Shown in pieces: positions 20,701-50,341 of a stretch of DNA of 50,522 bases. The notes under the pieces are model-generated. The model had not been told where the DNA came from and ran no database searches. It saw only the letters and a program-made list of their open reading frames with translations. This stretch comes from Propionibacteriaceae bacterium (GTDB taxonomy: Bacteria; Actinomycetota; Actinomycetes; Propionibacteriales; Propionibacteriaceae): assembly GCA_031272505.1 (NCBI GenBank), contig JAISTQ010000029.1, forward strand, positions 1 to 50,522, written 5' to 3'. A program made the translations under genes and the position numbers. Position 1 is the stretch's first letter, and every line of letters begins with the position of its first letter.

Positions 20701-23700
20701 CCACCGCGGCGAAGTCGCCCGGCACCGTCGGCGGCGTCTGATCCGCCACCGGCGTGTAGAAGGCGTACAACTCGTTGATGCAGAGCCACTTGTCCGTCGA
20801 AGTGCCATTGGAGACCACCCGCAGATAACGGGTCTGCTGGGTGGGGAACTTCATGATGCCGTACATCTGGCTCAGGTCGCCGGTCGAGATCGGCTCCCCC
20901 CAGTTCACGCCATCGGTGGAGGCGTACAGGCTGTAGGCCTTGAAGTACGAGTTGTCGCGGGCGATCCACACCAGCGAGTTGACGTTGATCACCTCGCCGA
21001 AATCGATGTTGATCCAGTGCCCGCTGGCCAGCAGCGCGCCCGACGCCCAGCGCAGGTCGCGGTTGCCGTCAATGATGTTCTCCTGCGGGTCGGTCGTCGG
21101 GTGGATGTTCTGGAACGGGGTGACCGTCCACAGCGAGGTGTCCAGGGGTTTGGTCAACACCCCGTCAGTGGCCGCGCCCTTGAAGGTGAAGGTGGAGTCG
21201 GTGGGAACCGTGATCTTCACATAGTGCACGCCGGACAGGTAGGAGGCGGAAACCACCTCGTTGCCGGTGACCGTGGCCAGATCCACATCGACCGCCGCAT
21301 CGTCCTCCTTCATCACCGAGACGGTGCCGGTGCCCGAACCGAAGACCGCGACTTGCTTGCCGCTGTAGTAGAACTCCACCGACGCGCCCGGATCAGCCAC
21401 CTTGCCGTTCGGGGTGTCCGTCCAGGTGCCGGTGTAGATATACGCCGGGTCGTCCACGGCGACCACCGGCTTCACGGTGAACTTGAAGGTGTACGGCGCC
21501 GCCAAGTTGCGGGTGGCCTGGTTGTTGGCGTCAATCAGATCGTGGACGGCGTCGGCCGCCACGGTGACCTTGTAGGTCTTCCCCGGAGTGAGCGCGTTGT
21601 TGGCGGTGACCCGCAGGATGTTGCTCTCCAGGCTGACGCTGGACGGGACGACGTTGCCTTCGTCGTCATACAAGGTGACGTCTCCGTCGCCCAACTGCAC
21701 CGTCTCGGAGAAGTAGACCTCCGCATACGAGTGGGTGGTCTCACCGTGGCTGTTCGGCGAAGAGCCGTTGACGACCGGGGCGGTCTCGTCGAGATAGCCC
21801 ATGCCGCCATAGAGCAGCACTTTGTCGATGATCACCCGGCCGCCGGCCGACTCCAAGTAGACGACGTTGTTGCCGGCGGTGACCGGCAGCGGGACCGTCT
21901 GCTCGCACTTCCAGGAATCCCAGCCGCCGGTGGTGCCCAGGGTGAGGGTGTACACCTGGTTGCCGTTCACATAGACGTTCACCGGCGCCGCGACGTCGCC
22001 GCCGTTCGCGTAGGTGAACTGCAGCCGGCTGGCCATCCGGGCGTCCGAGGTGATGTCCATGGTGAAGGAGCCACCTGCGGCCAAATCCACATAGCCGGTG
22101 CCGGTGTAGCCGGCGTTCTCGGCGCGCACCTTGGCGTTGGTGAGGTCACGTCCGCTCTCGGCCTGGTAGACGTCGCCGTCCTCGGTGGACTCCGGCGGCG
22201 TGAAGTCGTCGTTCGCCGGAGCCGGGGCCGGAGCCGGGAAGCGGTCGATGAGCTGCTGCAGGATCAGCTTTTCCACCCGCAGCCCCGGAGTGTCCGAAGT
22301 GGCCTTCAGCCCAATGGTGTTCGCGCCCGCGGCCAGGGTGACGTCAATGCTGTCATAGTTGTAGACGTTCTGGTAGCGGGTGTTCATGAAGTCGTACTTG
22401 CCGACCGTCATCCCGTTCACCACCAAGTCGGTGAGCATGTTCTTGCCGAAGCTCTCCGCGCCCGTCACCGAACCGGAGAAGCTGTCGTTCGAATAGCGGA
22501 AGATGATCGAGTACTTGCCAGCCGTCGGCACATTCACATTCCATGTGGCTTCGGCGGAAGTGGAGTTGAACAACAGATGGCCGATCGGCGTGGTGTGCGT
22601 GGGATCGTCCACCTCGTAGTTGCTCTCCACGCTGGTGCCGCTGGCGCTCGCATAAGCCTCGGCCTGGACCACGGTGTACTCCGGATCAGGCGCGGTGCTG
22701 GAGGTGAGCGTGAAGGAGACGGTGGCGGGCAGCGTGGCCGCCGAGCTGCCGATCCGCGCGATGAACTCGCCGGCCTCAGCCTTGAAGCTGTGGGTGTTCA
22801 CATCCCAGAAGCTCAACGAGCTCGCGTCCACGGTGAAGGTGGCGGTGCGGGTCTGCCCGGCGGGGATGTCCAGCTTGGTGAAGCCCTTCAGCTCCTTGAC
22901 CGGACGCGCCACGGACGACACCGGATCGCTGATGTACAGCTCGACCGTCTCCTTGCCGTCACGGGTGCCGGAGTTCGTCACCGGGACGGAGATGGTGATG
23001 GAATCCTCCGGGCCCATGGTGGTGGCGCTGGCGGTGGCCGTGCCATAGGTGAAGTTGGTGTAACTCAAGCCATAGCCGAACGGATACTCGTAGGGCACGT
23101 TGTTGGCGTCATGGTAGCGGTAGCCGACGTTCACGCCCTCGGTGTAGAAGACGTCATTCGTCTTCGCCACCTTCTGGTCTTCGGCGGTCGGCCCCGCGCT
23201 GGCGATGAAGCCCTCGGTGTCCGCGTAGCGGCGCGGCCAGGTGAAGGAGAGCTTGCCGGACGGGTTGACGGCGCCGAACAGGATCTCGGCGACCGCGGTG
23301 CCGCCTTCCTCGCCGCCATAGAACATCGTCATGATGCCCTTGACGTCATCGGCGAAATCGCGGATCTCGCGAGCGGAGCCGTTCATCACCACGATGGTCT
23401 TGTTCGGGGCGGCTGCGGCCACAGCCTTGATCAACTGTAGCTGCGGAGCCGGGAAGGACAGGTCGAAGACGTCGCCGTCCTCGGAGTCGGGGCCCTGCGG
23501 GATGTACGGATCGCCCTTTTCAATGCCGGCGAAGATGATCGCGTAGTCAGATTCCTGGGCGGCCGCCACCGCATTGGCGATGGTGGTGTCCAGGTTCGCG
23601 GTGGTCTCCGAATAGGTGGGAATGACGAACTGGGTCGTCAGGCTGTGCGCCGACTTGTAGTTGTTCAGGCCCTCCAGATACGACTTCTGATCGGCCGGAC

Positions 23701-24835
23701 GCATGTAGGAGGAGCCGCCCATCGAGGTGGCGTCGAATTCCTTGCTCACATACTTGCCCAACAGCGCGATCTTGGCGGTGGACTCCGGGATCGGCAGAAT
23801 GTTGTCCTGGTTCTTCAGCAGCACGATGCCCTCTTCGGCCACCTGCAAGGCGACCGCCCGGTTTGCCGGGGTGTTCTCCTCACCGCCGGAGATCGGGGCG
23901 CCGGTCATCTTGGCCACCCGGATGATCCGCTGCGCGGCGTTGTCAATCGCGGCGGCGGGCAGTTTGCCCTGCTGCACATAGCTGGCCAGCTTGGTGTACA
24001 GGTCGGAGTTCGGCATCGAGACGTCGGTGCCGGCCTTGGCGGCGATGATGTCGGTGCGCACCTTGATCCAGTCCGTCATGATCAAGCCGGACATCCCCCA
24101 GTCGTTCTTGGTCAGGTTGGTGAGGATGTAGCGGTTGTCGGAGACGAAGGTGCCGTTGACGCGGCCCGCGGACGTCATCAGACCCCAGACGTCGGCATCC
24201 TCCACGGCTGCCTTGAAGGGGGCCAGATAGACCTCGTGCATCGCCCGTTCGGAGATGTTTGACGTCACCCAGTTGCGGTTCGTCTCGGCGTTGTTGGCCA
24301 AAATGTGCTTCGGGGTGGAGGCCACATTCTGGGCCTGCACGCCCTTGATGTACTCGGCGGTGATCTGCGCGTTCAGGTACGGGTCTTCGGTGAAGTACTC
24401 GAAGGTGCGGCCGCCGCCGAGATCGCGGTTCAGGTTGATGCCGGGGCCCAGGTGGATTTCCCGGCCGTTGTATTTCACTTCCTTGCCGAGCACGTCGCCG
24501 ACCGAATTGATCAGCTCCTTGTTCCAGGTGGAGGCGATTACCAGGCCGGAGCCGAAGGCGGTGCCGTCGGCGACACCGTCACCGTTGAAGCCGAGCGGCC
24601 CGTCACCCATGTTCAGCGCCGGGACGTCACCCACGGCGACCAGGTTGTTCACCCCGTCGCCGTACATCAGCCGGTTGCGTTGCGCGGTGGTGAGGGTGGC
24701 CAGCGTCGCGTTGACGGCCTCCTCCAAGGCGTCGTCAGCGTGAGCCGGTGGGGTGACCACCGCCATTGACGAGAAAATGATGGATAAAGCGACGGTTGGA
24801 ATGAGCGCCAATCGTCGGAGTTTCGTATGCGACAT
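17792..24835 (-). CDS. Giant secreted multidomain glycoside hydrolase family 3 protein
   Basis: 2347 residues. Sec signal peptide (cleavage after AHA, residue 33). GH3 catalytic part about 40-600: KHILANN near 176, nucleophile Asp255 in LIMTDW, AGTDVSMP, and FYGGEEGG near 505-512 with a likely acid/base Glu. A fibronectin-like domain ends near 715. Then come two CBM6/35-like modules (720-865, 885-1010), an SbsA-type Ig domain (1018-1120), an F5/8 type C-like module (1240-1360), fibronectin III/F5/8-C pairs (1370-1850), three FIVAR-like three-helix repeats (1860-2040), an Ala-rich coiled coil (about 2040-2240) and a Lys-rich beta domain. No LPXTG is seen. It likely hydrolyses beta-linked glycans outside the cell. 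It interrupts the gcvH-garA-ftsR/MerR-gcvP block. Confidence 0.9.
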   Translation of the reverse strand: MSHTKLRRLALIPTVALSIIFSSMAVVTPPAHADDALEEAVNATLATLTTAQRNRLMYGDGVNNLVAVGDVPALNMGDGPLGFNGDGVADGTAFGSGLVIASTWNKELINSVGDVLGKEVKYNGREIHLGPGINLNRDLGGGRTFEYFTEDPYLNAQITAEYIKGVQAQNVASTPKHILANNAETNRNWVTSNISERAMHEVYLAPFKAAVEDADVWGLMTSAGRVNGTFVSDNRYILTNLTKNDWGMSGLIMTDWIKVRTDIIAAKAGTDVSMPNSDLYTKLASYVQQGKLPAAAIDNAAQRIIRVAKMTGAPISGGEENTPANRAVALQVAEEGIVLLKNQDNILPIPESTAKIALLGKYVSKEFDATSMGGSSYMRPADQKSYLEGLNNYKSAHSLTTQFVIPTYSETTANLDTTIANAVAAAQESDYAIIFAGIEKGDPYIPQGPDSEDGDVFDLSFPAPQLQLIKAVAAAAPNKTIVVMNGSAREIRDFADDVKGIMTMFYGGEEGGTAVAEILFGAVNPSGKLSFTWPRRYADTEGFIASAGPTAEDQKVAKTNDVFYTEGVNVGYRYHDANNVPYEYPFGYGLSYTNFTYGTATASATTMGPEDSITISVPVTNSGTRDGKETVELYISDPVSSVARPVKELKGFTKLDIPAGQTRTATFTVDASSLSFWDVNTHSFKAEAGEFIARIGSSAATLPATVSFTLTSSTAPDPEYTVVQAEAYASASGTSVESNYEVDDPTHTTPIGHLLFNSTSAEATWNVNVPTAGKYSIIFRYSNDSFSGSVTGAESFGKNMLTDLVVNGMTVGKYDFMNTRYQNVYNYDSIDVTLAAGANTIGLKATSDTPGLRVEKLILQQLIDRFPAPAPAPANDDFTPPESTEDGDVYQAESGRDLTNAKVRAENAGYTGTGYVDLAAGGSFTMDITSDARMASRLQFTYANGGDVAAPVNVYVNGNQVYTLTLGTTGGWDSWKCEQTVPLPVTAGNNVVYLESAGGRVIIDKVLLYGGMGYLDETAPVVNGSSPNSHGETTHSYAEVYFSETVQLGDGDVTLYDDEGNVVPSSVSLESNILRVTANNALTPGKTYKVTVAADAVHDLIDANNQATRNLAAPYTFKFTVKPVVAVDDPAYIYTGTWTDTPNGKVADPGASVEFYYSGKQVAVFGSGTGTVSVMKEDDAAVDVDLATVTGNEVVSASYLSGVHYVKITVPTDSTFTFKGAATDGVLTKPLDTSLWTVTPFQNIHPTTDPQENIIDGNRDLRWASGALLASGHWINIDFGEVINVNSLVWIARDNSYFKAYSLYASTDGVNWGEPISTGDLSQMYGIMKFPTQQTRYLRVVSNGTSTDKWLCINELYAFYTPVADQTPPTVPGDFAAVGYNGFIRVDWSASEDESTVTYELFRDGVKVTTLRDKYYFVDLYADMSVPHTYTVRAYDESGNYSAMSAPVTGQMDPANTKLPNSDWALTGTISTPWDAVGHPGEYAIDGDHETWYRTNSLQATARIFRIDLGDYYPVSMMAIDSGGSDEYGRRYRLRTSTSGWEVSATTAFNNVNGFQDPRIQEIPFTNTGGAVLARYMTIDLRTSASVQWTVYEFEFFYTLSSDYSMSAPTGLTATGYNGFNRLDWTASPSGKVAVTGYQVYRDGEKLGTTGTTPVFVDTSPKPGTAHVYTVSATGALSAESEQSAPVTQATVPANTEIPKAPINYWAGTASPNNGSPGNAVDNNDSTAYTGTANQAVGNYVRADLGSSYPFNRVAVLSSSATDFGKEYKIEVSANGSTWTEVATAQAGVSGTKVTDLADRQTARYVRLTLTDADTTVPWSIDEIRVYNVTSKAELEAVISAAQALTEADYTTSTWASLPTALAQAESVDADAGATETQVATAAQNLQHAIDALKLRGDPTALDAVISDAQAVAALGRLSLTDQATLTTAIAGAKAVFDNATDKTQTEIDAATNKLQQALTVAKAELLAADRTALAALADAVAALGPISDVFSPATVEALEKALAEAQEILADPTSTQAEVEDARGDLNAALAGLTANPNSAAAQAAAAAAQAAAEAQAALDQAAALAAQAQQHKAAMQAALAAADAQKALELAQAAQDKLDALSQAAQEKAQALLDAANNAAIDKASALAAAEQAYQLQLQAAALAAEADKVTALAQAALDAANALEAALEAAEADNAAALEAAAKAAEADKAAALEAAAKAAESEKAAALAAAEAQKQAELAAAAAAALAEKTALTEENNKTKAKVPQQATTKSVKVTAAKFKKNTKPVVFVTVTLSAGYPKGKVALYVNGKWVKSINVVNKKTKVKLPKKYAKAISVKAKYVPKAAKNGATGTVKTSKAVKVKIK

Positions 24836-24951: not shown

Positions 24952-25644
24952 TCAAGACAGCATGGAACGCATCATCGCCGCGTGGGCGTTCAATATCAGG
25001 TTCATTACCTCGTTGGGCAGGCCGCGGGCCATCGGGTTGCGGCGCAGATAAGGGGTGATCGCCTGCTCGATGAGGCCGGTTTCGCGTTCGGCGGATTGCT
25101 TCACGATGCGCAGATGCCGGGCGTCGATGCCATAGGTGGCGAGCTTGCGGGCGATCACGCAGACGGCCAACGCGTCCCGGTCGTAATAGATGGTGCCCCG
25201 GCGCGGCTTCACCAAAGCCTGCTTTTCCAATTCCGCCAGCATCGCCTCGGAAACCCCGGAAGCGTTCAAGAGATCCCGGCGGGAGATCCGCATCGCCCGC
25301 TGCGGCAACTGCTGCCGGGGGCGGGTGACTGGCGGTGCGGCGGGAGCGGCCTCGGCTGATTTCGGCTCGGCGGAGAGGGTGCCGTCCACCGGCTCGCCGC
25401 GATCCATAGCCTCCAACTGTTCGCGGATCACATTCAGCGGCAGATAGTGGTGCTTCTGGGCGTCCAGGATGTAGCGGAGCCGCTCGATGTCGGATTCGGC
25501 GTAACGGCGGTAGCCGCTGGGGGCCCGTTCGGGCGAGATCAGCCCCTCGGATTCAAGGAAGCGGATCTTGGAAATGGAGATGTCCGGATACTCACCTTCG
25601 AGTATCGCTTTGACTTGGCCGATTGAGCGAAGCCCGATTGCCAT
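24952..25644 (-). CDS. ftsR: MerR-family regulator FtsR (Rv1828-like)
   Basis: 230 residues from ATG 25644 (GGGAG upstream). The frame extends to 25710 but overlaps the FHA gene and lacks a ribosome site. The N-terminal winged helix (ISISKIRFLESEGLISPERAPSGYRRY) and IERLRYILDAQKHHYLPLNVIREQLEAM are nearly diagnostic of Rv1828/FtsR, a MerR-type activator tied to ftsZ and cell division in corynebacteria. The C-terminal half (about 120-230) carries a second helix-turn-helix-like part (LNASGVSEAMLAELEKQALVKP). It follows garA by 10 bases, so garA-ftsR is probably one transcript. The symbol rests on homology and gene order. Confidence 0.85.
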   Translation of the reverse strand: MAIGLRSIGQVKAILEGEYPDISISKIRFLESEGLISPERAPSGYRRYAESDIERLRYILDAQKHHYLPLNVIREQLEAMDRGEPVDGTLSAEPKSAEAAPAAPPVTRPRQQLPQRAMRISRRDLLNASGVSEAMLAELEKQALVKPRRGTIYYDRDALAVCVIARKLATYGIDARHLRIVKQSAERETGLIEQAITPYLRRNPMARGLPNEVMNLILNAHAAMMRSMLS

Positions 25645-25654
25645 GATGCTCCCG

Positions 25655-26143
25655 TCAGCTAGTAGTTCCCTCGAAGAAAATGAGCCGGTACTTCCCCACC
25701 TGGATGGCATCCCCCGGCTTCAGCAGCTGCTCGTCCTCGACCAGCTCGGAGTTGACGTAGGTGCCGTTCAGGCTGCCTTCGTCCTTGACTTTGAAATGAC
25801 CGTCTTCGCGCAGGAAGCGGGCGTGACGCCGCGAGACGGTGATGTCGTCCAAGAAAATGTCGCACTTTGGGTGGCGGCCGACGGTGACCACATCGGCGTT
25901 CAGCAGGTACTTCTCCCCCGCCTGGGCCCCGCGCACCGCCAACAGCAGGGCGGACCCGGCGGGCAGCGCGTCGACAGCGGCCGCTTCGGCGGGACGGAGA
26001 TCGGCGTAGGTGATCTGATCAGCTTGGACGGCGACGATGGAGGTGGTGTCCCCGGAGGCCTTCGCCAGCGAGGCGCCGCAATGCGGGCAGTAGTTGGCCT
26101 GGGCGTCAACCTCGAAGCCGCAGGCCGGACAGGTGATCGTCAT
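25655..26143 (-). CDS. garA: GarA/OdhI-like FHA regulator with zinc ribbon
   Basis: 162 residues. An N-terminal zinc ribbon (CPACGFEVDAQANYCPHCG, four Cys at 5-22) is followed by GDTTSIV near 31-37, which matches the phospho-threonine motif ETTSV of GarA. The FHA domain (about 70-155) has GRHPKCDI, SRRHARF and SLNGTYV. In mycobacteria GarA, when not phosphorylated, binds 2-oxoglutarate dehydrogenase and glutamate enzymes; PknG/PknB phosphorylation turns this off. The zinc ribbon is not part of mycobacterial GarA. It overlaps gcvH by four bases (ATGA). A PknG-like kinase is encoded at 42458. Confidence 0.85.
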   Translation of the reverse strand: MTITCPACGFEVDAQANYCPHCGASLAKASGDTTSIVAVQADQITYADLRPAEAAAVDALPAGSALLLAVRGAQAGEKYLLNADVVTVGRHPKCDIFLDDITVSRRHARFLREDGHFKVKDEGSLNGTYVNSELVEDEQLLKPGDAIQVGKYRLIFFEGTTS

Positions 26144-40818: not shown

Positions 40819-42009
40819 ATGAGTACCGAAGTCAATCCTGAAGAAGTCTTTTCGTTGGATCCGCCAGCCCCGTCCAAGGACGTGGTGCCGACCCAGGCGC
40901 CGAAGATGGCGCCAAAGGTGGAAATGGAACGGATTCCGGTGTTGGATGCCAAAGTTGACGAGTTCCTGGCGGCGTTGCAGACGGCCGAGCCGGGCTCGCC
41001 GGAAGTCGCCGCGCAAGCGGATGCCGTGCGGGCGATGGGCGACACCGACATCCGCAAGGCGGCCGAAACGTCAAACCGGCTGTTGAACTCGCCGGTGAAG
41101 GCCGTCAAGGAAGGCGGCGTCGAGGAAGGCTCGACGGTGGCGAAGGCGTTGCTGGAGTTGCGCCGCACCGTGGAGACGCTGGATCCGGCGGGCGGCCGGG
41201 GCCAGGAGAAGAAGTTCCTGGGGATTTTCCCGACGGGCAAGTCGAAAGACTATTTCCGCAAGTACCAAAGCTCGCAGGCGCAGTTGGACGCGATTCTGCA
41301 CGCGCTGCGTTCCGGCCAGGATGAGCTGGGCAAGGACAACGCGGCGCTGAACCTGGAGAAGCAGAATTTGTGGGACATGATGGCCCGGCTGAACCAGTAC
41401 GTCTACATCGCCGAGCAGTTGGACGACAAGTTGACGGCCCAGATCGCCGAGTTGAAGGCCACCGATCCAGACAAGGCGAAGGCTTTGGAGCAAGATGTGC
41501 TCTTCTATGTGCGGCAGAAGCACCAGGATCTGCTCACCCAGTTGGCGGTGTCGGTGCAGTCGTATCTGGCGATGGACATCATCATCAAGAACAACATCGA
41601 GCTGATCAAAGGCGTGGACCGGGCTTCCACGACGACGGTTTCGGCGCTGCGCACGGCGGTGATCGTGGCGCAGGCGGTGGGCAACCAGAAGCTGGTGCTG
41701 GATCAGATCACCGCGTTGAACACCACCACGTCGACGATCATCGAAAGCACCTCGATGGCGCTGCGGAAGAACTCGGCAGACATCCAGGAGCAGGCGGCTT
41801 CGGCGACCATCGGCATGGAGCAGTTGCAGAACGCGTTTGCGAACATCTACGCCACCATGGACGCCATCGACGAGTTCAAGGGCAAGGCCCTGGAGACGAT
41901 GAGCCAGACGGTGGCCCAGTTGGAGGGCCATGTCGCCCAGTCCAAGCTGTACTTGGAGCGCGTTAGGCAGTCCGACGAACATCCGACCCCCGAGATCACC
42001 ATTGACTGA
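40819..42009 (+). CDS. TelA/KlaA family toxic-anion resistance protein
   Basis: 396 residues, TelA family. The conserved helical core is seen in YFRKYQSSQAQLDAILHALRSGQDELGKDNAALNLEKQNLWDMMARL (about 135-185) and in the long coiled helices to residue 380. TelA proteins are found with tellurite resistance and in Ter-type stress operons, but their mechanism is unclear. GGGAG precedes the ATG. First gene of a five-gene run; its stop overlaps the next start by one base (TGATG). Confidence 0.85.
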   Translation: MSTEVNPEEVFSLDPPAPSKDVVPTQAPKMAPKVEMERIPVLDAKVDEFLAALQTAEPGSPEVAAQADAVRAMGDTDIRKAAETSNRLLNSPVKAVKEGGVEEGSTVAKALLELRRTVETLDPAGGRGQEKKFLGIFPTGKSKDYFRKYQSSQAQLDAILHALRSGQDELGKDNAALNLEKQNLWDMMARLNQYVYIAEQLDDKLTAQIAELKATDPDKAKALEQDVLFYVRQKHQDLLTQLAVSVQSYLAMDIIIKNNIELIKGVDRASTTTVSALRTAVIVAQAVGNQKLVLDQITALNTTTSTIIESTSMALRKNSADIQEQAASATIGMEQLQNAFANIYATMDAIDEFKGKALETMSQTVAQLEGHVAQSKLYLERVRQSDEHPTPEITID

Positions 42010-42461
42010 TGCCCACTTATGAGGAGATCCTGGCCGCCATCGTCCGGGTAGAGCAGTTGGTCTGCCGCACCGACGTGCCCACGGTGGTGACCGCCCGCGT
42101 GCTCCGGATCACCCGGGTGCTGCGCGAGTTGCTTCCCCGCCTCTCCCACCTCGGCTTGGGCTCTTGGGACGCCTATTCGGTGATGGCGACGGCCACCGAC
42201 TACCTCCCCGAGGCCGTCAACGCCTATCTGAGGCTGCCCCGCAACTGGGCGGACACCCGGCCCATCTCGAACGGCAAGACCTCGCTGATGCTGCTGGTCG
42301 AACAGTTGGAGTTGCTCACCACCACCGTCGACGAACTCTTTGACGCGGCCGTCCGCCAGGACGCCAACGACCTGGTGGTGCATGGGCTGTTCCTCAAAGA
42401 GCGGTTCGCTGCCGGGGTCGAGGTGGAAAACCTCACTGAGCAGGCAGGCGTGCAGCCGTGA
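42009..42461 (+). CDS. Small helical protein of unknown function in TelA operon
   Basis: 150 residues. Rich in helix with repeated Leu; contains RITRVLRELLPRLSHL, YLRLPRNWAD and SLMLLVEQLELLTTTVDELFDAAV. I recognise no named family. The start overlaps the telA stop and the end overlaps the kinase start, so the protein is probably made in a fixed ratio with them, perhaps as a scaffold. Confidence 0.75.
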   Translation: MPTYEEILAAIVRVEQLVCRTDVPTVVTARVLRITRVLRELLPRLSHLGLGSWDAYSVMATATDYLPEAVNAYLRLPRNWADTRPISNGKTSLMLLVEQLELLTTTVDELFDAAVRQDANDLVVHGLFLKERFAAGVEVENLTEQAGVQP

Positions 42462-43822
42462 GCAACTTCCCCACTCCGCCCGGCGCCATCGGCAAGCCCG
42501 CCGACGCCACCGCGGTGCTGCGGTTCCTCTCCGACCTACGCGCCTGGGTCACCGACACCAAAGACGCCCTCGACGACGCGGACCAGGCGATCCTGGCCAG
42601 CGGCCATCCCCGGGATTTCCAGGCCGACATCACCCTGGCCATGTCACTGTGGCAGGCGGTGCAGACCCGCCAGCAGCAATTGCTGGCCCGCTGGGATTCC
42701 GGACGGGTGGACGCGGTGGCTTTGAACGAGATCACCCAGTTGGTCTTCGGGCGGCTCGACAACACCGGCCAGTCGGCGTTCAATCTCCCTGAGGCAGGCC
42801 GGCTGGTGAACGCGCTCTTGGACAAGCTGCGCAGCCAGTTGGGCCTCGGATTTGACGTGATCATGCGGCAGGTTCGCGGTTTGCGCGCCCAGGTTACCCG
42901 CATCGAGGAGCAGTTGCCGTCCGTCCCGCCCAGCATCCAGGACGGCTACCGGGCGCAGGTGGACGGGCTGCGGCCCCAGTTGGAGGGGTTGGTTTCCAAG
43001 CAGGCGCGCGGCGGCGACGTGGTCGGCGAGTTGCAGGCCTTCACGATTCGCGCGGCGAAGCTGGAACGCGACCTGATCGTGGCGGCCACCCCGAAACCCG
43101 CCGGGGAGGCGCGGCTGCGTCCGGGCGAGCTGGTGGCCGGGCAGTATCGGGTGGTGGAGCCCATCGCCAAGGGCGGCTTGGGCTGGATCTACTTGGCCAC
43201 GGATCAGCGGGTGGGCGGCCGCCAGGTGGTGCTGAAAGGGTTGGTGGACGAGACCAGCAGGCAGGCGGTGGATGCGGCGGCGAACGAGCGGCAGATGCTG
43301 GCCCGGCTGGGAACCCATCCGTTGATCGTCGAGATCTACAACTGGGTGTGGCACGCCGGGGCGCAATACATCGTGATGGAGTACGTTCCCGGCAAGTCGC
43401 TCAAAGAGCTGCTGGCCAGCGAATCCGTCTCGGTGGAGCGCGCGCTGCGCGATGTGTTGGCGGTGCTGCCCGCGATTGCGTACATCCACTCCCTCGGGCT
43501 GCTCTATGTGGATTTCAAGCCCGCGAACATCATGGTTTCCGCCCAGAAGGTGATGCTGATCGATCTGGGCTCGGTGCGCGAGATTGACGACCGGCGCAGC
43601 TCGGTGCTGGGCACCCCCGGTTTTGCGGCCCCCGAGTTGGCCGAGCAGGGCACCTCCATCGCCACCGACATCTATGCGATTGGCAAGACCCTGGAGACGG
43701 TTTTGGGCGATGCGGACTCGCCTGCGGTCCGCGCGGTAATCGGAAAGGCCACTGCGGACGATCCGGCGGGCCGCTATGCGAATGTGGGCGAGTTGGAACA
43801 GGCGTTGCGTCAGGCGCTGTGA
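42458..43822 (+). CDS. PknG-like serine/threonine protein kinase
   Basis: 454 residues from GTG 42458. An N-terminal helical half (1-215) has no rubredoxin domain. The kinase domain (about 228-450) is close to PknG: GGLGWIYLATDQ, VVLK (Lys260), NERQ (Glu277), IVMEYVPGKSLKELL, YIHSLGLLYVDFKPANIM (Asp352, Asn357), IDLG (Asp369 in place of DFG, as in PknG) and GTPGFAAPEL. It lacks the TPR tail of PknG. No membrane segment, so it is soluble. Known PknG acts on GarA. The kinase is surrounded by vWA and FHA genes, so it may feed an FHA reader here. High confidence of kinase; the target is inferred. Confidence 0.85.
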   Translation: MSNFPTPPGAIGKPADATAVLRFLSDLRAWVTDTKDALDDADQAILASGHPRDFQADITLAMSLWQAVQTRQQQLLARWDSGRVDAVALNEITQLVFGRLDNTGQSAFNLPEAGRLVNALLDKLRSQLGLGFDVIMRQVRGLRAQVTRIEEQLPSVPPSIQDGYRAQVDGLRPQLEGLVSKQARGGDVVGELQAFTIRAAKLERDLIVAATPKPAGEARLRPGELVAGQYRVVEPIAKGGLGWIYLATDQRVGGRQVVLKGLVDETSRQAVDAAANERQMLARLGTHPLIVEIYNWVWHAGAQYIVMEYVPGKSLKELLASESVSVERALRDVLAVLPAIAYIHSLGLLYVDFKPANIMVSAQKVMLIDLGSVREIDDRRSSVLGTPGFAAPELAEQGTSIATDIYAIGKTLETVLGDADSPAVRAVIGKATADDPAGRYANVGELEQALRQAL

Positions 43823-43836
43823 CGGGAAAGGAAGCT

Positions 43837-44895
43837 ATGGAAGCGACGGTTTATCAAAACGAATTCCTGCCGGTGGGCGGGACGGACATCAACGCGATTG
43901 TGGCCTTCGATCCCGGTGCGGACGCCCCGCCCGCGATTGGGGCGGCGGCGGAGATCATCGTGGTGGACGGTTCGGTCTCCATGAAACCGCACTTGGACAC
44001 CCTGCTGGCGGCGGCCGAGACGGCCATCAAGCTGCTCGATCCGGGCAGCCAGTTCGCGGTGCTGGTGGGCACCCACCGGGCGAAGGTGCTCTGCCCGTTG
44101 AAACCGGTGAACGAAGGCACCCAGAATGACGCCGTCAAGGCGCTGCGGGCGCTCACCCCCGAAGGTGGCACGGCAATGGGCACCTGGCTGAAGCTGGCCG
44201 CCCAAGTCTTCACCGTGGGCCAGGCTCCCGCTCCGCGCCATGTGCTGCTCATCGGTGACGGCGGCAATCGCAACGAGCTCCCCGAGCAGTTCTTGAAAGC
44301 GCTGCAGGACGTCACCGGGCAGTTCTCCGCCGACTGCCTCGACATCGGCGCCGACCCGGAGCCCGGCGACCTGCGCTACCGGCTCGCCACCGCGCTGGGC
44401 GGGCAGTTGATAAACCCGATCACCGATCCCCAGCAGTTGGAGAACGTGCTCACCATGGCGCTGCGCCGCTTCTCCCCCGCCTTGGCCAGCCCGACGCTGC
44501 GGCTTTGGCTGCCGGTGGGCACCGAGTTGCTCTACCTCAAGCAGGTCTCTCCCGACGTCACCGAGCTGCCCCCGCCCACCGAGATCACCACCTATCTGCA
44601 CGACTATCCGCTGCGGTGGACGGAATCCGCCGTCCACGAATACCACCTCGGCATCCGGGTGCCGCCCAGCTCCGTGGGCAAGGAACAACTCGCCGCCCGG
44701 CTGGAGTTGCGCTCTGGGCACAAGCTGCTGGCGAACGCGCAGATCCAGGCCCGTTGGTCCTCCCCCGGCGGGCCCATCCCGACGCCGCCGACCCCGGAAC
44801 CCGCGACCGAGCCGCAAACCTCAGATTTCTACACGCCCCCGGTAGCCAACAATCCGCCGCAGTCTGACGAGTCTGACACCACACTGCTGAAATGA
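43837..44895 (+). CDS. von Willebrand factor A domain protein
   Basis: 352 residues from ATG 43837 (AAAGGA upstream); a GTG at 43819 overlaps the kinase stop. The vWA domain (about 36-215) has a MIDAS with Asp44-x-Ser46-x-Ser48 in VVDGSVSM, plus GGTAMG and LLIGDGG. A beta-rich part follows (about 220-310), then a Pro/Thr-rich tail that ends in DESDTTLLK. The tail resembles a phospho-threonine ligand for FHA domains. Cytoplasmic, since there is no signal peptide. Upstream kinase and downstream FHA genes suggest a complex. Confidence 0.85.
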   Translation: MEATVYQNEFLPVGGTDINAIVAFDPGADAPPAIGAAAEIIVVDGSVSMKPHLDTLLAAAETAIKLLDPGSQFAVLVGTHRAKVLCPLKPVNEGTQNDAVKALRALTPEGGTAMGTWLKLAAQVFTVGQAPAPRHVLLIGDGGNRNELPEQFLKALQDVTGQFSADCLDIGADPEPGDLRYRLATALGGQLINPITDPQQLENVLTMALRRFSPALASPTLRLWLPVGTELLYLKQVSPDVTELPPPTEITTYLHDYPLRWTESAVHEYHLGIRVPPSSVGKEQLAARLELRSGHKLLANAQIQARWSSPGGPIPTPPTPEPATEPQTSDFYTPPVANNPPQSDESDTTLLK

Positions 44896-44940
44896 AGCGG
44901 TAGACTCTATTGCGAGAAACAGCTGCACACAGGGGTTGAG

Positions 44941-45432
44941 ATGTCGCAAACCGTCGAGTGGGTCGCGGAGGTCTGGATCGATCCAGACTGGTACGCCGCC
45001 CAAGGCGCTGAAGAGCCGATGCCCTCCCCCGGCCTGCCGGACATCGTCCCGTTGACGAAACCAGTGAACTTGATCGGCCGCTCCTCGCCCTCGCGCGGAA
45101 TCGCCCCGGACATCGAGTGCGAGCTCGATACCGGCGTCTCCCGCCGTCACGCCGAGTTGAGCACCGATTGGACGCGCTGGTTCATCGAGGATCTCGGCAG
45201 CGCCAACGGCACCTTCGTCGGCATTCCCGACGGGCCGGTGCCCGCGATGCCGATTCCGGCCGGAAAGTTGGAGCTGAAGGATCGGCAATGCATCTTCGTC
45301 GGCGCGTGGACGAAAATCGTGATCCGCCGCGCTTTGCCGCCCGAACAACAAGCCTTCGGCGCCCGCCCTGAACCGATTGCGGACGCCCAGACAGTGGAAA
45401 CCCCGCCTCCGCCGCCACCTCCGGCCCCGTGA
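44941..45432 (+). CDS. FHA-domain protein, end of TelA/kinase operon
   Basis: 163 residues. FHA domain (about 35-130) with IGRSSPSRG, VSRRHAEL and DLGSANGTFVG, the loops that bind phospho-threonine. The C-terminal tail is Pro-rich (ten prolines in the last 20 residues). It is a candidate reader of the kinase encoded two genes upstream. It lies 45 bases after the vWA gene. Confidence 0.87.
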   Translation: MSQTVEWVAEVWIDPDWYAAQGAEEPMPSPGLPDIVPLTKPVNLIGRSSPSRGIAPDIECELDTGVSRRHAELSTDWTRWFIEDLGSANGTFVGIPDGPVPAMPIPAGKLELKDRQCIFVGAWTKIVIRRALPPEQQAFGARPEPIADAQTVETPPPPPPPAP

Positions 45433-45466: not shown

Positions 45467-45691
45467 ATGGAAGTAAAGATAGGAATATTGAACGCCGCCC
45501 GTGAGGTCTCGGTGAACTATACCGGCACCTTGGAAGAGTTAGAAAAGGCGGTAAATGAGGCGCTGGCTAGTGAGACCGTCCTCAAACTGAATGACGATAA
45601 AGGCCGTCAGGTTTTCATCCCGGCATCGGCGATTGCCTATGTCGAGGCTGATTCGCAGTCGTCCCGTCAGGTTGGGTTTGGGCGGCTATGA
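45467..45691 (+). CDS. DUF3107 family protein
   Basis: 74 residues from ATG 45467. MEVKIGILNAAREVSVNY at the start and KGRQVFIPASAIAYVE are typical of DUF3107, a small protein found throughout actinobacteria and often beside a DEAD-box helicase, as here. Function unknown. Its stop overlaps the helicase start (ATGA), so they are translationally coupled. Confidence 0.88.
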   Translation: MEVKIGILNAAREVSVNYTGTLEELEKAVNEALASETVLKLNDDKGRQVFIPASAIAYVEADSQSSRQVGFGRL

Positions 45692-47166
45692 CAGATTTTG
45701 CACATTTAGGAGTACACCCGAAGATCATCAAAGCCCTGAAGGGGGTCGGCATCACCGAGCCGTTCCCGATCCAGGAGCTCTCCATCCCGATTGCGCTTTC
45801 GGGCACCGACATGATCGGCCAGGCGCGCACCGGCACCGGCAAGACTTTGGCGTTCGGCATCGCGCTGCTGCAGCGGATCACCGTCCCCGCGGATGCGGCC
45901 TGGGAAGGCGATCCGGCAGGCCGGAATCCGCAGGCCCTGGTGATGTGCCCCACCCGCGAGCTGGCCTTGCAGGTGACCGAAGACCTTGACGTGGCCACCG
46001 CCTATCGCCCCGCGAAGGTGATGACGGTCTATGGCGGCGTCGGCTACGAGCCGCAGCTGGATCGGATCGCCAAAGGTGTGGACGTGGTGGTGGGCACCCC
46101 AGGCCGGCTGCTCGATCTGCTGCATCGCGGCGATCTCGACCTCTCCGACATCAAGATTTTGGTGTTGGACGAGGCGGACGAGATGCTCGACATGGGTTTT
46201 CTGCCCGACGTGGAGGCGCTCATCGAGGCCACCCCGAAGGAGCGGCAGACGATGCTGTTCTCGGCCACCATGCCGGCTGCCATCGTCTCGCTGGCCCGCA
46301 CCCATTTGAACCAGCCGATCAACGTGCGCGCGGAGACCCGCGACGCCCAGCTCACCGTGCCGGACACCACCCAGTTCGTCTATCGGGCCCATGATCTCGA
46401 CAAGCCGGACATGGTCGGCAAGATCTTGCAGGCCGAAGGGCGGGGCCGCACCATCATCTTCACCCACACCAAGCGTTCCGCGCAGCTTTTGGCGGATGAT
46501 CTGAAGGGCCGCGGCTTCAAGGTGGTCTCCCTGCATGGCGATCTCGCCCAGGCCTCGCGCGAGCGGGCGCTGGAGAAGTTCCGCGACGGCAAGGCGGACG
46601 TGCTGGTGGCCACCGATGTGGCCGCGCGCGGCATCGACGTCACCGACGTCACCCATGTGATCAACTACGAATGCCCCGACAACGAGCTCACCTACGTGCA
46701 CCGGATTGGCCGCACCGGCCGGGCGGGCGCCTCCGGCATCGCGGTCACCTTCGTGGATTGGGCCGACATGGTGCGCTGGAAGGTGATCAACAAGGCGCTG
46801 GGGCTGGATTTCGAGGAGCCGCCGGAGACGTACTCCACCTCGGAGAACTTCTTGGTGGACTTGAACATCGCGCCCGGTACCAAGGCGTGGCTCAAAGAGC
46901 CGGAAGACCCGTATCAAGTCGGGCTGTCCAGCCGGGATCGCGATGACCGTCGCGGTGGTGATCGCCGGGGTGGCCGGGATGACCGCCGGGGTGGTCGCGA
47001 TGACCGCCGGGGTGGTCGCGATGACCGGCGCGGCAACCGGGATCGCCGGGGCGGAGAACGGCGCGAGCGCCGGGAAGAGAAGCCCGCCGAGGAGTCGAAA
47101 CCGCGTGAGTCGCGGCAGAAGCGGGAACGCCGCCGGCTGCGCAATGGCAAACCTGTCGAGGAGTGA
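45688..47166 (+). CDS. DEAD-box RNA helicase with RGG-rich tail
   Basis: 492 residues. All helicase motifs are seen: ARTGTGKT, PTRELAL, TPGRLLD, DEAD (VLDEADEMLDMGF), SAT, IIFTHTKRSA, DVAARGID and HRIGRTGRAG. The C-terminal 80 residues are a basic Arg/Asp/Gly repeat tail (RDDRRGG) that probably binds RNA. It unwinds RNA in ribosome assembly or mRNA decay. The tail is encoded by tandem DNA repeats. Its 3' end overlaps or abuts the GRE activase start. Confidence 0.93.
   Translation: MTDFAHLGVHPKIIKALKGVGITEPFPIQELSIPIALSGTDMIGQARTGTGKTLAFGIALLQRITVPADAAWEGDPAGRNPQALVMCPTRELALQVTEDLDVATAYRPAKVMTVYGGVGYEPQLDRIAKGVDVVVGTPGRLLDLLHRGDLDLSDIKILVLDEADEMLDMGFLPDVEALIEATPKERQTMLFSATMPAAIVSLARTHLNQPINVRAETRDAQLTVPDTTQFVYRAHDLDKPDMVGKILQAEGRGRTIIFTHTKRSAQLLADDLKGRGFKVVSLHGDLAQASRERALEKFRDGKADVLVATDVAARGIDVTDVTHVINYECPDNELTYVHRIGRTGRAGASGIAVTFVDWADMVRWKVINKALGLDFEEPPETYSTSENFLVDLNIAPGTKAWLKEPEDPYQVGLSSRDRDDRRGGDRRGGRDDRRGGRDDRRGGRDDRRGNRDRRGGERRERREEKPAEESKPRESRQKRERRRLRNGKPVEE
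46940..47062 (+). repeat. Tandem repeat coding the helicase RDDRRGG tail
   Basis: Units of about 24 bases with gatgaccgccggggtgg-type core repeat four to five times. They encode RDDRRGG-like motifs. Such short repeats change length easily by slippage. Confidence 0.8.
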
Positions 47167-47942
47167 TGTCCGTCCCGTACGTCTTCAACGTGCAACGGTT
47201 CTCCATCAATGATGGGCCGGGGCTGCGCACCACCGTCTTCTTCAAAGGCTGTCCGCTGTCGTGCCCGTGGTGCCACAACCCGGAGTCGATCAGCTTCGAG
47301 CCCGAGGTGATGGTGTCCGCCGACGGCGGCGCAGAAGTGGTCGGGCGGCAATACCCGGTGGCCGAGCTGGTGGAGCTGTGCGCCAAAGACCAGATCTTCT
47401 ACGACCAGTCTGGCGGCGGGGTGACGCTCTCGGGCGGCGAAGTGATGGTGCAGGATTTCGGCTACGTCACCGAGTTGGTCGAGAGTTTGCGCGCCAAGGG
47501 CATCACGGTGGGCATCGACACCTGCGGTTTGGCGCCCTCCGAGCGCTTCACCGCGCTGGCGAACCGGGCCGCCTTCTTCCTCTATGACCTCAAGTTCATC
47601 GATTCGGAAAAGCACCGGCAGTACTGCGGGGCCCCCAACGACCTGATCTTGAAAAACCTCAAGCTGCTCGCTGACGCCGGGGCAAACCTCTACTTGAGGC
47701 TGATCCTGCTTGAGGGTTTGAACACCGATTCGCAGACTATCGAGTCGACGCTGAATTGGCTGGTGGAGCACGAGATTCGCCCCACCGAGGTGAACTTGCT
47801 CCCCTACCACCGGTTCGGCCAAGACAAGGCGGTGAAACTTGGGCGGCCGTGGCGCGAATTCGTCACGCCCAGCGACGAAACGGTAAATCGTTACAAAGAG
47901 CGGCTAGAATCTGTTTTTACCCAGGTGACAATTGGCGGGTAA
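47166..47942 (+). CDS. Glycyl-radical enzyme activating protein (radical SAM)
   Basis: 258 residues from ATG 47166; a GTG directly upstream (47163) is also possible. The radical SAM cluster motif is CPLSCPWC (CxxxCxxC) after RTTVFFKGCP, then SGGEVMVQ. It lacks the ferredoxin-like insertion with eight cysteines seen in many GRE activases, so it is of the short, PFL-activase-like form. It installs the glycyl radical on the enzyme encoded 18 bases downstream. The gene order, activase before enzyme, is unusual but known. Confidence 0.9.
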   Translation: MSVPYVFNVQRFSINDGPGLRTTVFFKGCPLSCPWCHNPESISFEPEVMVSADGGAEVVGRQYPVAELVELCAKDQIFYDQSGGGVTLSGGEVMVQDFGYVTELVESLRAKGITVGIDTCGLAPSERFTALANRAAFFLYDLKFIDSEKHRQYCGAPNDLILKNLKLLADAGANLYLRLILLEGLNTDSQTIESTLNWLVEHEIRPTEVNLLPYHRFGQDKAVKLGRPWREFVTPSDETVNRYKERLESVFTQVTIGG

Positions 47943-47959
47943 GGCTTTTGGGAGGGCTG

Positions 47960-50341
47960 ATGAGCGAGACGAAACGGGGATTCACCGCGCGGACGCAACG
48001 GCTCCGCGAGCAGTCGGAGACAACGCGCCCGTCGATCTCCTTGGAACGCGCCCTGATCGAGACTGAGGTATACCAGCAATGGGAGGGCAAGGTGCCCACC
48101 CCGGTGCTGCGCGGGCTGTTCTTCAAGGATCTGATGCGCCGACGCACCCTGTATCTGGGCGATGACGAGCTGATCGTGGGTGAGAAGGGCGTAGCCCCGC
48201 AATCCGCCCCGACTTTCCCCGAATTGTGCTGCCACACCCTGGAAGATTTGGACAACATGGACGCCCGCGAGCGGGTCTCTTTCGCGGTGACCGACGCGGA
48301 TCGGCACCTGCAAGCCGAGGTGATCATCCCCTTCTGGGCCGAGCGGGCCACCATGACGAAGATGTACGCGCAGCTTCCCGAGGCCTGGCATCTGCTCTTC
48401 AACGCCGGGCTGTTCACCGAGTTCATGGCCCAGCGCGGGCCCGGACACACGGTGGCGGACGGCAAGATCTACCGCAAAGGCTATCTGGATTTCATCGCCG
48501 ACATCGAGGCCGAACTGGCGAAGATCGACTACGGCCAGGATATGCGCGCCAGTGACCGCAAAGCCGAGTTGGAGGGCATGAAGCTGGTCTGCGAAGGCAT
48601 GGTCATCCTCGGCGAGCGCTATGCCGCCCTGGCTCGGGAAAAGGCGCTCGAATGCGGCGACCCGGTGCGCCAGGCCGAGTTGGAGGAACTCGCGGCTGTC
48701 TGCGACGTGGTGCCCGCCCACGCGCCGCGCACTTTCCGCCAGGCGGTGCAGATGTACTGGCTCACCCACATCGGCGTCACCTCCGAGATGAACAACTGGG
48801 ACGCCTATTCGCCGGGCAAGCTGGATCAGCACCTGGAGCCGTTTTACAACGCCGAGATCGCCGCGGGCACGCTCAGCCGCGAACAGGCCCGCGAGTACCT
48901 GGAGTGCCTGTGGATCAAGTTCAACAACCAGCCGGCCCCGCCGAAGGTGGGCATCACCCTCAAGGAGAGCGCCACCTACACTGATTTTTGCAACATCAAC
49001 ACCGGCAGCCTGCGCCCGGACGGCACCTCGGGCGTCTCCGACGTCTCCTACCTGATCTTGGAGGTGATGGACGAGCTGAAGCTGCTGCAGCCCTCCTCGA
49101 ACGTGCAGATCTCGCGCAAGAGCCCCGAGCACTTCCTGCGCGAGGCGGTGAAAATCTCGCGCAAAGGCTGGGGCCAGCCCGCCTTCTACAACTCCGAGGC
49201 GGTGGTCGCCGAGCTGCTCAACATGGGCAAGACCATGGACGACGCCCGCGAATCCGGAATCGCCTCGGGCTGTGTGGAGACCGGCACCGCCGGCAAGGAA
49301 GCCTACGTGCTCACCGGATACTTCAACGTCCCCAAGGTGTTGGAGTTGGTGCTGAATCGCGGCTTTGACCACTACACCCGCAAGCAGGTCGCCCCGGATC
49401 TGGGCGATCCGCGCAGCTTCGGCTCTTACGAGCAGCTCTACGCCGCCTACACCGAGATGCTGCGCTATGTGGCGGACGTGAAGGTGGCCGGCAACAACCT
49501 GATCGAAAAGCTCTTCATGGACACCATGCCCGTCCCGCTGCTCTCGGTGATCACCGACGACTGCATCAAGAAGGGCCTTGATTACAACTGCGGCGGCGCC
49601 CGCTACAACACCTCGTACATCCAGTGCGTGGGCATCGCCACGGTGACGGATTCGCTGGCCGTGATCAAGGCCCACATCTACGGGGATGCCCAGTTGTCTT
49701 GGGATGAGCTGTTGACGGCGCTGGATGCCGATTTCGAGGGCCACGACGCCACGTTCGATTTGGTCTTCAACCAGACGCCGAAGTACGGCAATGACGACGA
49801 CTACGCCGATTCGATCCTGCGGGACGTGGTGGAATCCCTGCAACAGGCCATCGCCGGGCGGCCCACCCCGAAGGGCGCGAAGACGATTGTGGAATTCCTG
49901 CCCACCACCTGCCACGTCTACTTCGGCCAGGTGATGCAGGCCTCCGCCAACGGCCGCCACGCGGGCATCCCGCTGCCCGATGGCATCTCTCCCGAAAAGG
50001 GCGCGGACCGGCACGGCCCCACCGCCGTGATCAAGTCGGCCGCCAAGATCGACCAGTTGAAGACCGGCGGCGCGCTGCTGAACCAAAAGTTCACCCCGTC
50101 GGTGATCGCCGGCGAAAAAGGGCTGACGGCGGTGATGACGCTGATCCGCTCGTACTTCGCCATGGACGGGCACCACATCCAGTTCAACGTCGTCGACCGG
50201 GCCACCTTGCTGGACGCCCAGGCCCACCCCGAGCAGTACTCGGACCTCATCGTCCGGGTCGCCGGCTACTCAGACTACTTCAACAACCTCGACAAAGCCC
50301 TGCAGGACGAAATCATCGCCCGCACCGAACAGCAGATTTAG
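47960..50341 (+). CDS. hypD: Glycyl radical enzyme, trans-4-hydroxy-L-proline dehydratase (HypD-like)
   Basis: 793 residues from ATG 47960 (GGGAGGG upstream); a longer frame from 47756 overlaps the activase. Glycyl motif RVAGYSDYF (Gly769) and active Cys438 in SGCVETGTAGKEAYVL. Every active-site residue I recall for C. difficile HypD is present at a steady +3 or +4 shift: F155, H163, D281, S337, F343, C438, E440, Y454, T649, G769. HypD removes water from trans-4-hydroxy-L-proline to give pyrroline-5-carboxylate, which ProC can reduce to proline. The length fits (789 in C. difficile). A proC partner is not in the window. Radical enzymes of this kind are killed by oxygen. Confidence 0.85.
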   Translation: MSETKRGFTARTQRLREQSETTRPSISLERALIETEVYQQWEGKVPTPVLRGLFFKDLMRRRTLYLGDDELIVGEKGVAPQSAPTFPELCCHTLEDLDNMDARERVSFAVTDADRHLQAEVIIPFWAERATMTKMYAQLPEAWHLLFNAGLFTEFMAQRGPGHTVADGKIYRKGYLDFIADIEAELAKIDYGQDMRASDRKAELEGMKLVCEGMVILGERYAALAREKALECGDPVRQAELEELAAVCDVVPAHAPRTFRQAVQMYWLTHIGVTSEMNNWDAYSPGKLDQHLEPFYNAEIAAGTLSREQAREYLECLWIKFNNQPAPPKVGITLKESATYTDFCNINTGSLRPDGTSGVSDVSYLILEVMDELKLLQPSSNVQISRKSPEHFLREAVKISRKGWGQPAFYNSEAVVAELLNMGKTMDDARESGIASGCVETGTAGKEAYVLTGYFNVPKVLELVLNRGFDHYTRKQVAPDLGDPRSFGSYEQLYAAYTEMLRYVADVKVAGNNLIEKLFMDTMPVPLLSVITDDCIKKGLDYNCGGARYNTSYIQCVGIATVTDSLAVIKAHIYGDAQLSWDELLTALDADFEGHDATFDLVFNQTPKYGNDDDYADSILRDVVESLQQAIAGRPTPKGAKTIVEFLPTTCHVYFGQVMQASANGRHAGIPLPDGISPEKGADRHGPTAVIKSAAKIDQLKTGGALLNQKFTPSVIAGEKGLTAVMTLIRSYFAMDGHHIQFNVVDRATLLDAQAHPEQYSDLIVRVAGYSDYFNNLDKALQDEIIARTEQQI

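Follow-up and report, generated by a model that had tools for sequence, protein, structure and literature searches.

Organization of the TelA-kinase gene run

The DNA examined here (the window; 50,522 nucleotides) is one whole contig of a 2.23-Mb Propionibacteriaceae genome that is 98% complete. Five closely packed genes lie on its forward strand. Comparison with relatives marks them as a cut-down form of a larger operon that many actinobacteria retain, in which a PknG-type kinase is encoded together with TelA. The first gene (40819..42009) specifies a TelA protein of 396 residues (PF05816; 293 bits against a Pfam cut-off of 30), which is the only TelA match in its genome and is 68-74% identical to three relatives over 395 columns. 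It is followed by the genes for an all-helical TelA-partner protein of 150 residues (P150; 42009..42461), a fusion of a helical domain to a PknG-type kinase (42458..43822; Pkinase, 110.6 bits at residues 230-415), a vWA protein (probably 43837..44895; Pfam VWA_3, 51 bits), and an FHA protein (44941..45432; Pfam FHA, 40 bits).

TelA and P150 overlap by one base and P150 and the kinase by 4, the vWA stop and the FHA start are separated by 45 nt, and the sequence AGGGAGA lies directly 5' of the TelA ATG. The GTG at 43819 is doubtful as the vWA start. The gene probably spans 43837-44895, because the ATG at 43837, preceded by GGGAAAGGAAG, fits both the start in relatives and the choice of the gene caller used here. 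Promoter-like sites along the run number 1 (0.7 expected) and terminator-like sites 3 (4.8 expected), so no such signal splits the run. It most likely extends into the next two genes on the same strand, which encode a small DUF3107 protein (45467..45691; Pfam, 88 bits) and a DEAD-box helicase (45688..47166).

The order from TelA to the helicase is found again in one related genome (G011; L107/L152/L184) and, as far as its contig reaches, in another (G014; L153), with TelA beyond the contig end. Together with the adjacency of TelA and P150 in every locus with room for it (see below), this recurrence argues that the run is not a chance arrangement. Much of a preliminary description of this DNA agrees with what was found. 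It had listed the five genes in this order with tight or overlapping starts, had placed TelA, a PknG-like kinase, a vWA protein with MIDAS (metal ion-dependent adhesion site) residues, and an FHA protein in one operon, and had called the 150-residue protein locked between TelA and the kinase.

A larger operon in related actinobacteria

P150 was found in 41 of the 60 genomes of a set of relatives, including that of the window. A scan of named genomes confirmed 276 relatives; the loci analysed are the best 80 of them. In the titles of these 80, Nocardioides, Kribbella, and Propionibacteriaceae predominate; Dermatophilaceae, Intrasporangiaceae, and Cellulomonas are also represented. We take these organisms to be Propionibacteriales and Micrococcales. 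The full form of the operon has the order TelA, P150, AAA ATPase, GlnX, (GlnH), helical protein, PknG, PP2C, vWA, and FHA. CbbX (for the ATPase), GlnX, and GlnH are labels of our own, based on the Pfam hits of one Nocardioides set (AAA plus AAA lid; a weak four-helix-bundle match) and on resemblance to the glnX-glnH-pknG operon.

Gene content was counted in the 52 of 80 loci where P150 was called and the downstream sequence extends for 9.5 kb or more. CbbX, GlnX, GlnH, the helical protein (Hel), PknG, PP2C, and vWA all lie downstream of P150 in 44 of them. Five others lack GlnH only, and three lack vWA, GlnH and vWA, or GlnX and GlnH as called. An FHA gene follows vWA in 17 of 18 longer full-form loci (L134-L151; one with an intervening gene), and the exception, L144, is a locus whose genes were not called. 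Among 17 longer relative loci, the FHA gene is followed by DUF3107 in 10, and in 8 the DEAD helicase comes next. The five genes had been read as a complete signalling unit; they are better seen as the remnant of an operon of 9-10 genes, to which relatives add GlnX, GlnH, the AAA ATPase, and PP2C.

Some technical limits apply to these counts. The simple gene caller missed P150 in 8 of the 80 named loci and TelA in 5 of 20 TelA-containing regions from genomes of the same class, and sometimes mis-set starts. Because genes can be missed or misplaced in this way, adjacency was recounted by tblastn and stop-to-stop frames.

Reduction of the operon and of its kinase

The short form, consisting of TelA, P150, the Hel-PknG fusion, vWA, FHA, DUF3107, and the DEAD helicase, is common to the window, G011, and G014. 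Within the locus table, these are the only three genomes that combine the fusion with the absence of CbbX, GlnX, GlnH, and PP2C from the run. Queries with CbbX and GlnX, which lacked a positive control, gave no match elsewhere in the window's own genome; the absence of GlnH holds for the run, no genome-wide GlnH search having been made.

The window kinase has a helical domain at residues 1-215 (predicted local distance difference test, pLDDT, of 93 in the model) and a PknG-type core at about 219-454, which score 250 and 337 bits with our own Hel and PknG profiles. A phmmer search of the PDB gave PknG chains as the closest solved kinases (155-186 bits), with StkP next. Since the best solved relatives are PknG structures (185 bits, versus 80 for the next kinase), the window kinase is, by this measure, derived from PknG. 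In the alignment its catalytic motifs are intact (the glycine loop, the VVLKG lysine, YVDFKPAN, DLGS, and APE), and it ends at the C-lobe. Its PADLOC PD-T4-6 hits were set aside, as they reflect the generic kinase domain only.

What surrounds this core in PknG has been lost: the window protein has no zinc ribbons, rubredoxin, or tetratricopeptide repeat (TPR) domain. For rubredoxin there is no family match and no CxxC pair, and the alignment shows a gap; the domain is absent from the alignment of all three reduced kinases. The rubredoxin flag in our tables is a motif rule, and it also gives 0 for L151, where the motif anchor was not located, and for L086, whose protein is cut. PknG_TPR was detected in 38 of 60 genomes searched, the window's own among those searched, with no match in the window kinase or elsewhere in its 98%-complete genome. 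From the catalytic motif to the end, 99 full-form proteins (some genomes counted twice) have 442-464 residues and the three reduced forms 312, 156, and 105, a graded shortening. A tree without G014 separates the window plus G011 from 28 further loci at a bootstrap value of 100%.

The vWA and FHA proteins and candidate PknG targets

Aligned with its relatives, the window vWA protein keeps the MIDAS-like DGSVS, GGTA, and DGG sequences; the DxSxS, T, and D residues are taken here to form the MIDAS motif, and metal binding is putative. Two features of its relatives, a helical-looking C-terminal stretch and a DTASTKTTR tail, are missing from the protein, which ends in SDESDTTLLK. DTASTKTTR stands at the C-terminal end of all 49 non-reduced proteins among 52 distinct uncut vWA proteins, and it is a candidate for a tail whose phosphothreonine would be bound by the FHA protein. 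The latter has the motifs GRSSPSRG, SRRH, and SANGT aligned with relatives, corresponding to the GR, S-x-RH, and N-G motifs that are presumed to mark phosphothreonine readers, and is thus a putative phosphothreonine-binding protein. It is without N-terminal zinc ribbons; such ribbons are present, as called, in 14 of 17 fuller relatives.

A gene on the reverse strand (25655..26143), roughly 15 kb away from TelA, encodes an FHA protein of the GarA/OdhI type that carries a DTTS motif and, at its N-terminus, a zinc ribbon. It matches OdhI/GarA structures at about 120 bits and the NCBIfam OdhI model at 140.6 bits, below the 200-bit equivalog cut-off, and is a candidate substrate of the kinase. The genome also has the 2-oxoglutarate dehydrogenase C-domain (found in 56 of 60 genomes). 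Its other matches include two for PP2C, eight for FHA, and thirteen for kinase domains (eleven above cut-off). Because the GarA-type protein, 2-oxoglutarate dehydrogenase, and two PP2C enzymes are present, the classical PknG output and phosphatases would still be available. The earlier observation that no phosphatase accompanies the kinase is therefore true of the run but not of the genome.

Other features of the genome can be noted briefly. At about 9-15 kb of contig C7, four FHA matches cluster with a PP2C and a kinase, and a separate group on C33 has two FHA proteins, a PP2C, and a kinase. In the window, an FtsR gene (24952-25710, reverse strand; 248 bits, above cut-off) overlaps the end of the GarA/OdhI-type gene. 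A protein of 2347 residues (17792-24835, reverse strand) has a glycoside-hydrolase-like N-terminal part, matching arabinopyranosidase/beta-glucosidase models below their cut-offs, and a long extra C-terminal part. Directly after the DEAD helicase come the genes of a glycyl-radical enzyme system (47166-50341, forward strand), an anaerobic trait: the enzyme itself matches trans-4-hydroxy-L-proline dehydratase at 1260.8 bits (cut-off 1100), and the preceding activating-enzyme gene is above the general activator cut-off and below the specific one.

P150 and its association with TelA

P150 matches no Pfam, NCBIfam, or PADLOC family. Its AlphaFold model consists of helices (pLDDT 88), and a structure search with it gave no informative fold match. 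For TelA, no related solved chain was found. By eye, without a predictor, several P150 members have hydrophobic N-terminal segments; the window copy, inspected in the same way, does not.

P150 is a frequent partner of TelA. By tblastn, a TelA hit ends at most 450 bases upstream of P150 in all 78 of the 80 named loci that have room for it. In the class, TelA occurs in 42 of 246 genomes, and a P150 member adjoins TelA or lies within a few genes of it in 17 of 20 TelA regions examined from 19 class genomes. The PknG operon is present in only two of those 17 regions (L185, L188). P150 was not seen in class regions L195 and L200, the latter with TelA near the contig end, so that its partner may be off the contig, and the member in L198 is only marginal (22.8 bits). 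Region L195 carries a second TelA of genome G198 that is close to the PknG-operon type (721 bits with our own profile).

Among plasmid TelA loci, 4 of 7 have a P150 member, and none was seen at those of Arthrobacter (L173), Methanosphaera (L205), and Vibrio (L206). On a Curtobacterium plasmid, TelA (L208) lies amid three TerD-family genes and has a P150 family member nearby. Six loci (L172, 5809-10525; L174, 8818-13264; L192-L194; L204), from a Sphaerotilus plasmid record, Nonomuraea, and Streptomyces-like genomes, carry sets composed of TelA, a vWA protein fused to a solute-binding-protein-like part (SBP-vWA), and a P150 with a hydrophobic N-terminus. Similar-looking proteins of 360-380 residues are encoded upstream of TelA in L172 and L174.

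An earlier count with a narrow P150 alignment (A1) found the family in 2 of 396 genomes of the phylum, the window's own included, and was rejected as a distribution because in most genomes the scoring covered no more than 8 first-look candidates. G187, scored empty, has a P150 member (L194; 96 bits) that was found later with a wider profile.

P150 is probably a distant relative of XpaC, by homology and not by family membership. An hhalign comparison of 23 diverse P150 members with XpaC gave a probability of 56.6% (E 1.1e-4, 90 columns), falling to 18.8% with a close P150 set and to 8-13% with eight transmembrane-type members alone. Reversed, unrelated, and 30 shuffled control profiles reached at most 1.2% against XpaC, and one unrelated control family (CbbX) reached 5.2% against P150. 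Membership is not suggested, because the Pfam XpaC model (PF10112) matches none of 57 P150 members at E values up to 5; it has no match in the window's own genome. Across the phylum, 9 of 396 genomes carry XpaC, and at five of the nine loci it lies beside a gene matching our TelA profile (29-34 bits). Nine of the 57 P150 members also matched a DAHL domain (best E 0.0022), too weakly to be retained.

Possible functions of the reduced operon

The best-grounded part of the interpretation concerns ancestry: the run appears to descend from PknG nutrient signalling joined to a TelA/XpaC-like membrane module, the PknG side being indicated by the GarA/OdhI-type protein and 2-oxoglutarate dehydrogenase. 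To the observed gene content, losses, intact catalytic residues, GarA-type protein, and dehydrogenase, a functional reading can be added. It is fairly probable that this is a reductively evolved PknG operon in which the kinase phosphorylates GarA or the step between the vWA tail and the FHA protein holds.

In the full form, a published model would have amino-acid sensing by GlnH outside the cell and GlnX in the membrane control PknG, which would set the phosphorylation of GarA/OdhI and, through it, act on 2-oxoglutarate dehydrogenase. The same operon also encodes a proposed membrane-stress pair, TelA and the XpaC-like P150, along with the AAA ATPase, PP2C, the vWA protein, and the reader FHA protein. 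In the line leading to the window, the operon appears to have shed its sensor, ATPase, and phosphatase genes. The helical protein became joined to the kinase, which lost both its redox parts (rubredoxin and zinc ribbon) and its docking part (TPR); this would leave a minimal set of writer, scaffold, and reader on TelA. The helical domain might then replace TPR and GlnX docking and tie the kinase to TelA and P150. The kinase could still phosphorylate GarA at its DTTS motif, a phosphothreonine in the vWA tail could be read by the FHA protein, and dephosphorylation might fall to one of the two PP2C enzymes elsewhere in the genome.

A broader and more tentative proposal is that in many Propionibacteriales and some Micrococcales, PknG would not act alone as a glutamate sensor but would be the writer of a previously undescribed membrane signalosome that couples amino-acid sensing to envelope-stress control. 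Its parts would be TelA, the XpaC-like P150, the AAA ATPase, GlnX and GlnH, a helical scaffold, a PP2C eraser, the vWA protein, and the FHA reader. The window would then hold the minimal working core, with the fused helical domain replacing both the GlnX input and the TPR dock.

Several points weigh against the reading as a reductively evolved PknG operon. TPR-less PknG variants failed to restore growth in published complementation experiments (PMC6069109, PMC8546545), and TPR loss may thus mean that the role in GarA control was lost. The three reduced kinases have 3, 2, and 0 CxxC pairs, and this count alone gives no grading, because full forms as called range from 2 (24 proteins) through 3 (18) and 4 (56) to 5 (1). 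The grouping of the window with G011 lies on long branches (1.15 and 0.88). Furthermore, DTASTKTTR itself is not kept in the window vWA protein. A T-x-x-I/L pattern occurs in 29 of 52 vWA tails, compared with 32% of shuffled tails and 16% of random 14-mers; the rows are related and most of the remaining tails have V, so the pattern proves nothing for the window. Finally, the vWA protein is 33-43% identical to its relatives, versus 68-74% for TelA and 54-73% for FHA, and this faster divergence could also reflect relaxed constraint.

One of these reports also describes a Corynebacterium glutamicum PknG cut to its core, which kept activity on a peptide and lost about 7-fold on OdhI (PMC8546545). 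By analogy, the window kinase resembles this truncated core, and its helical domain is a candidate substitute dock.

A different and less probable arrangement would make a TelA/XpaC-type envelope-stress module, like YaaN-XpaC of Firmicutes, the core of the system, with a kinase that has lost its metabolic role and only gates TelA and P150 through the vWA and FHA proteins. The occurrence of P150 beside TelA without PknG nearby, in class regions and plasmid loci and partly as TelA-[SBP-vWA]-P150 sets, is in keeping with this idea, as is the better conservation of TelA and FHA than of vWA in the window. XpaC-TelA operons of Lactococcus and Listeria are reported to respond to envelope stress (PMC3139573, PMC12791056). 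However, the genome keeps both a GarA-type protein with DTTS and 2-oxoglutarate dehydrogenase, so a PknG target is still present, and no envelope-stress regulator was identified, none having been looked for.

Decay is much less probable. The loss of genes and domains, the long branches of the window and G011, and the small 2.2-Mb genome could be taken to mean that the kinase and vWA genes are heading for loss in a set without coherent function, but all frames are open, the catalytic, MIDAS-type, and FHA residues are kept, the genes adjoin one another tightly, and three genomes have the short form in common. The least probable reading is a Ter-type chemical-stress or anti-phage system; the preliminary description had drawn the comparison with Ter-linked stress systems. 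In favour of this reading are the description of TelA and the TerF vWA protein as sub-membrane Ter components (PMC7824862) and the Curtobacterium TelA among TerD genes; it is weakened by the lack of TerD or TerC in the nine window proteins scanned (the five and four neighbours, the rest of the genome not having been scanned for them), by PADLOC matches to a generic kinase domain only, and by the lack of any match to the window TelA in a phage collection.

Implications and comparison with known systems

PknG is a much-studied serine/threonine kinase whose published descriptions give it a universal TPR domain and an operon of three genes. The wider operon also encodes TelA and its partner, an ATPase, a phosphatase, and a reader protein with an FHA domain, all of which become candidate PknG partners, and TelA gains a frequent partner in P150 and possibly a kinase. 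Naturally occurring kinases that lost rubredoxin and then TPR with an intact catalytic core could show which parts GarA control requires. No description of a PknG-TelA operon was found in the open literature, subscription papers and the 2012 Ter survey cited in PMC12054061 lying outside the search; in PMC3694306, which contains both names, Tela is the title of a journal.

Several known systems share components with the window. Ter-dependent stress systems likewise pair TelA with a vWA protein (of the TerF type), and they differ in TerD and TerC, which are missing from the nine proteins scanned. The TelA-[SBP-vWA]-P150 modules have the same TelA, vWA, and P150 members in one run, whereas in them a solute-binding-like part (Pfam SBP in L174) is joined to the vWA, their P150 has a hydrophobic N-terminus by eye, and our own profiles find neither PknG nor the operon FHA protein in them. 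In the XpaC-TelA (YaaN) operon of Firmicutes, TelA also adjoins a small partner, and the P150 profile built from diverse members gives a tentative match to XpaC (probability 57%, E 1e-4); unlike that partner, P150 has no Pfam XpaC match, the window copy has no N-terminal hydrophobic segment, and the pair is linked to a kinase operon.

A further parallel is the published glnX-glnH-pknG operon (PMC6069109, PMC9769921) of Corynebacterium and Mycobacterium. Published accounts call TPR conserved in all PknG homologues (PMC6069109) and name Corynebacterium PknG as the only one within Actinobacteria without rubredoxin (PMC8546545). The window shares the PknG-type kinase core, its fuller relatives carry GlnX, GlnH, and PknG close together, and its genome has the GarA/OdhI-type protein and 2-oxoglutarate dehydrogenase. 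In contrast to that operon, the window has no GlnX, GlnH, TPR, or rubredoxin, and it adds TelA, P150, the vWA and FHA proteins, and a helical domain fused to the kinase.

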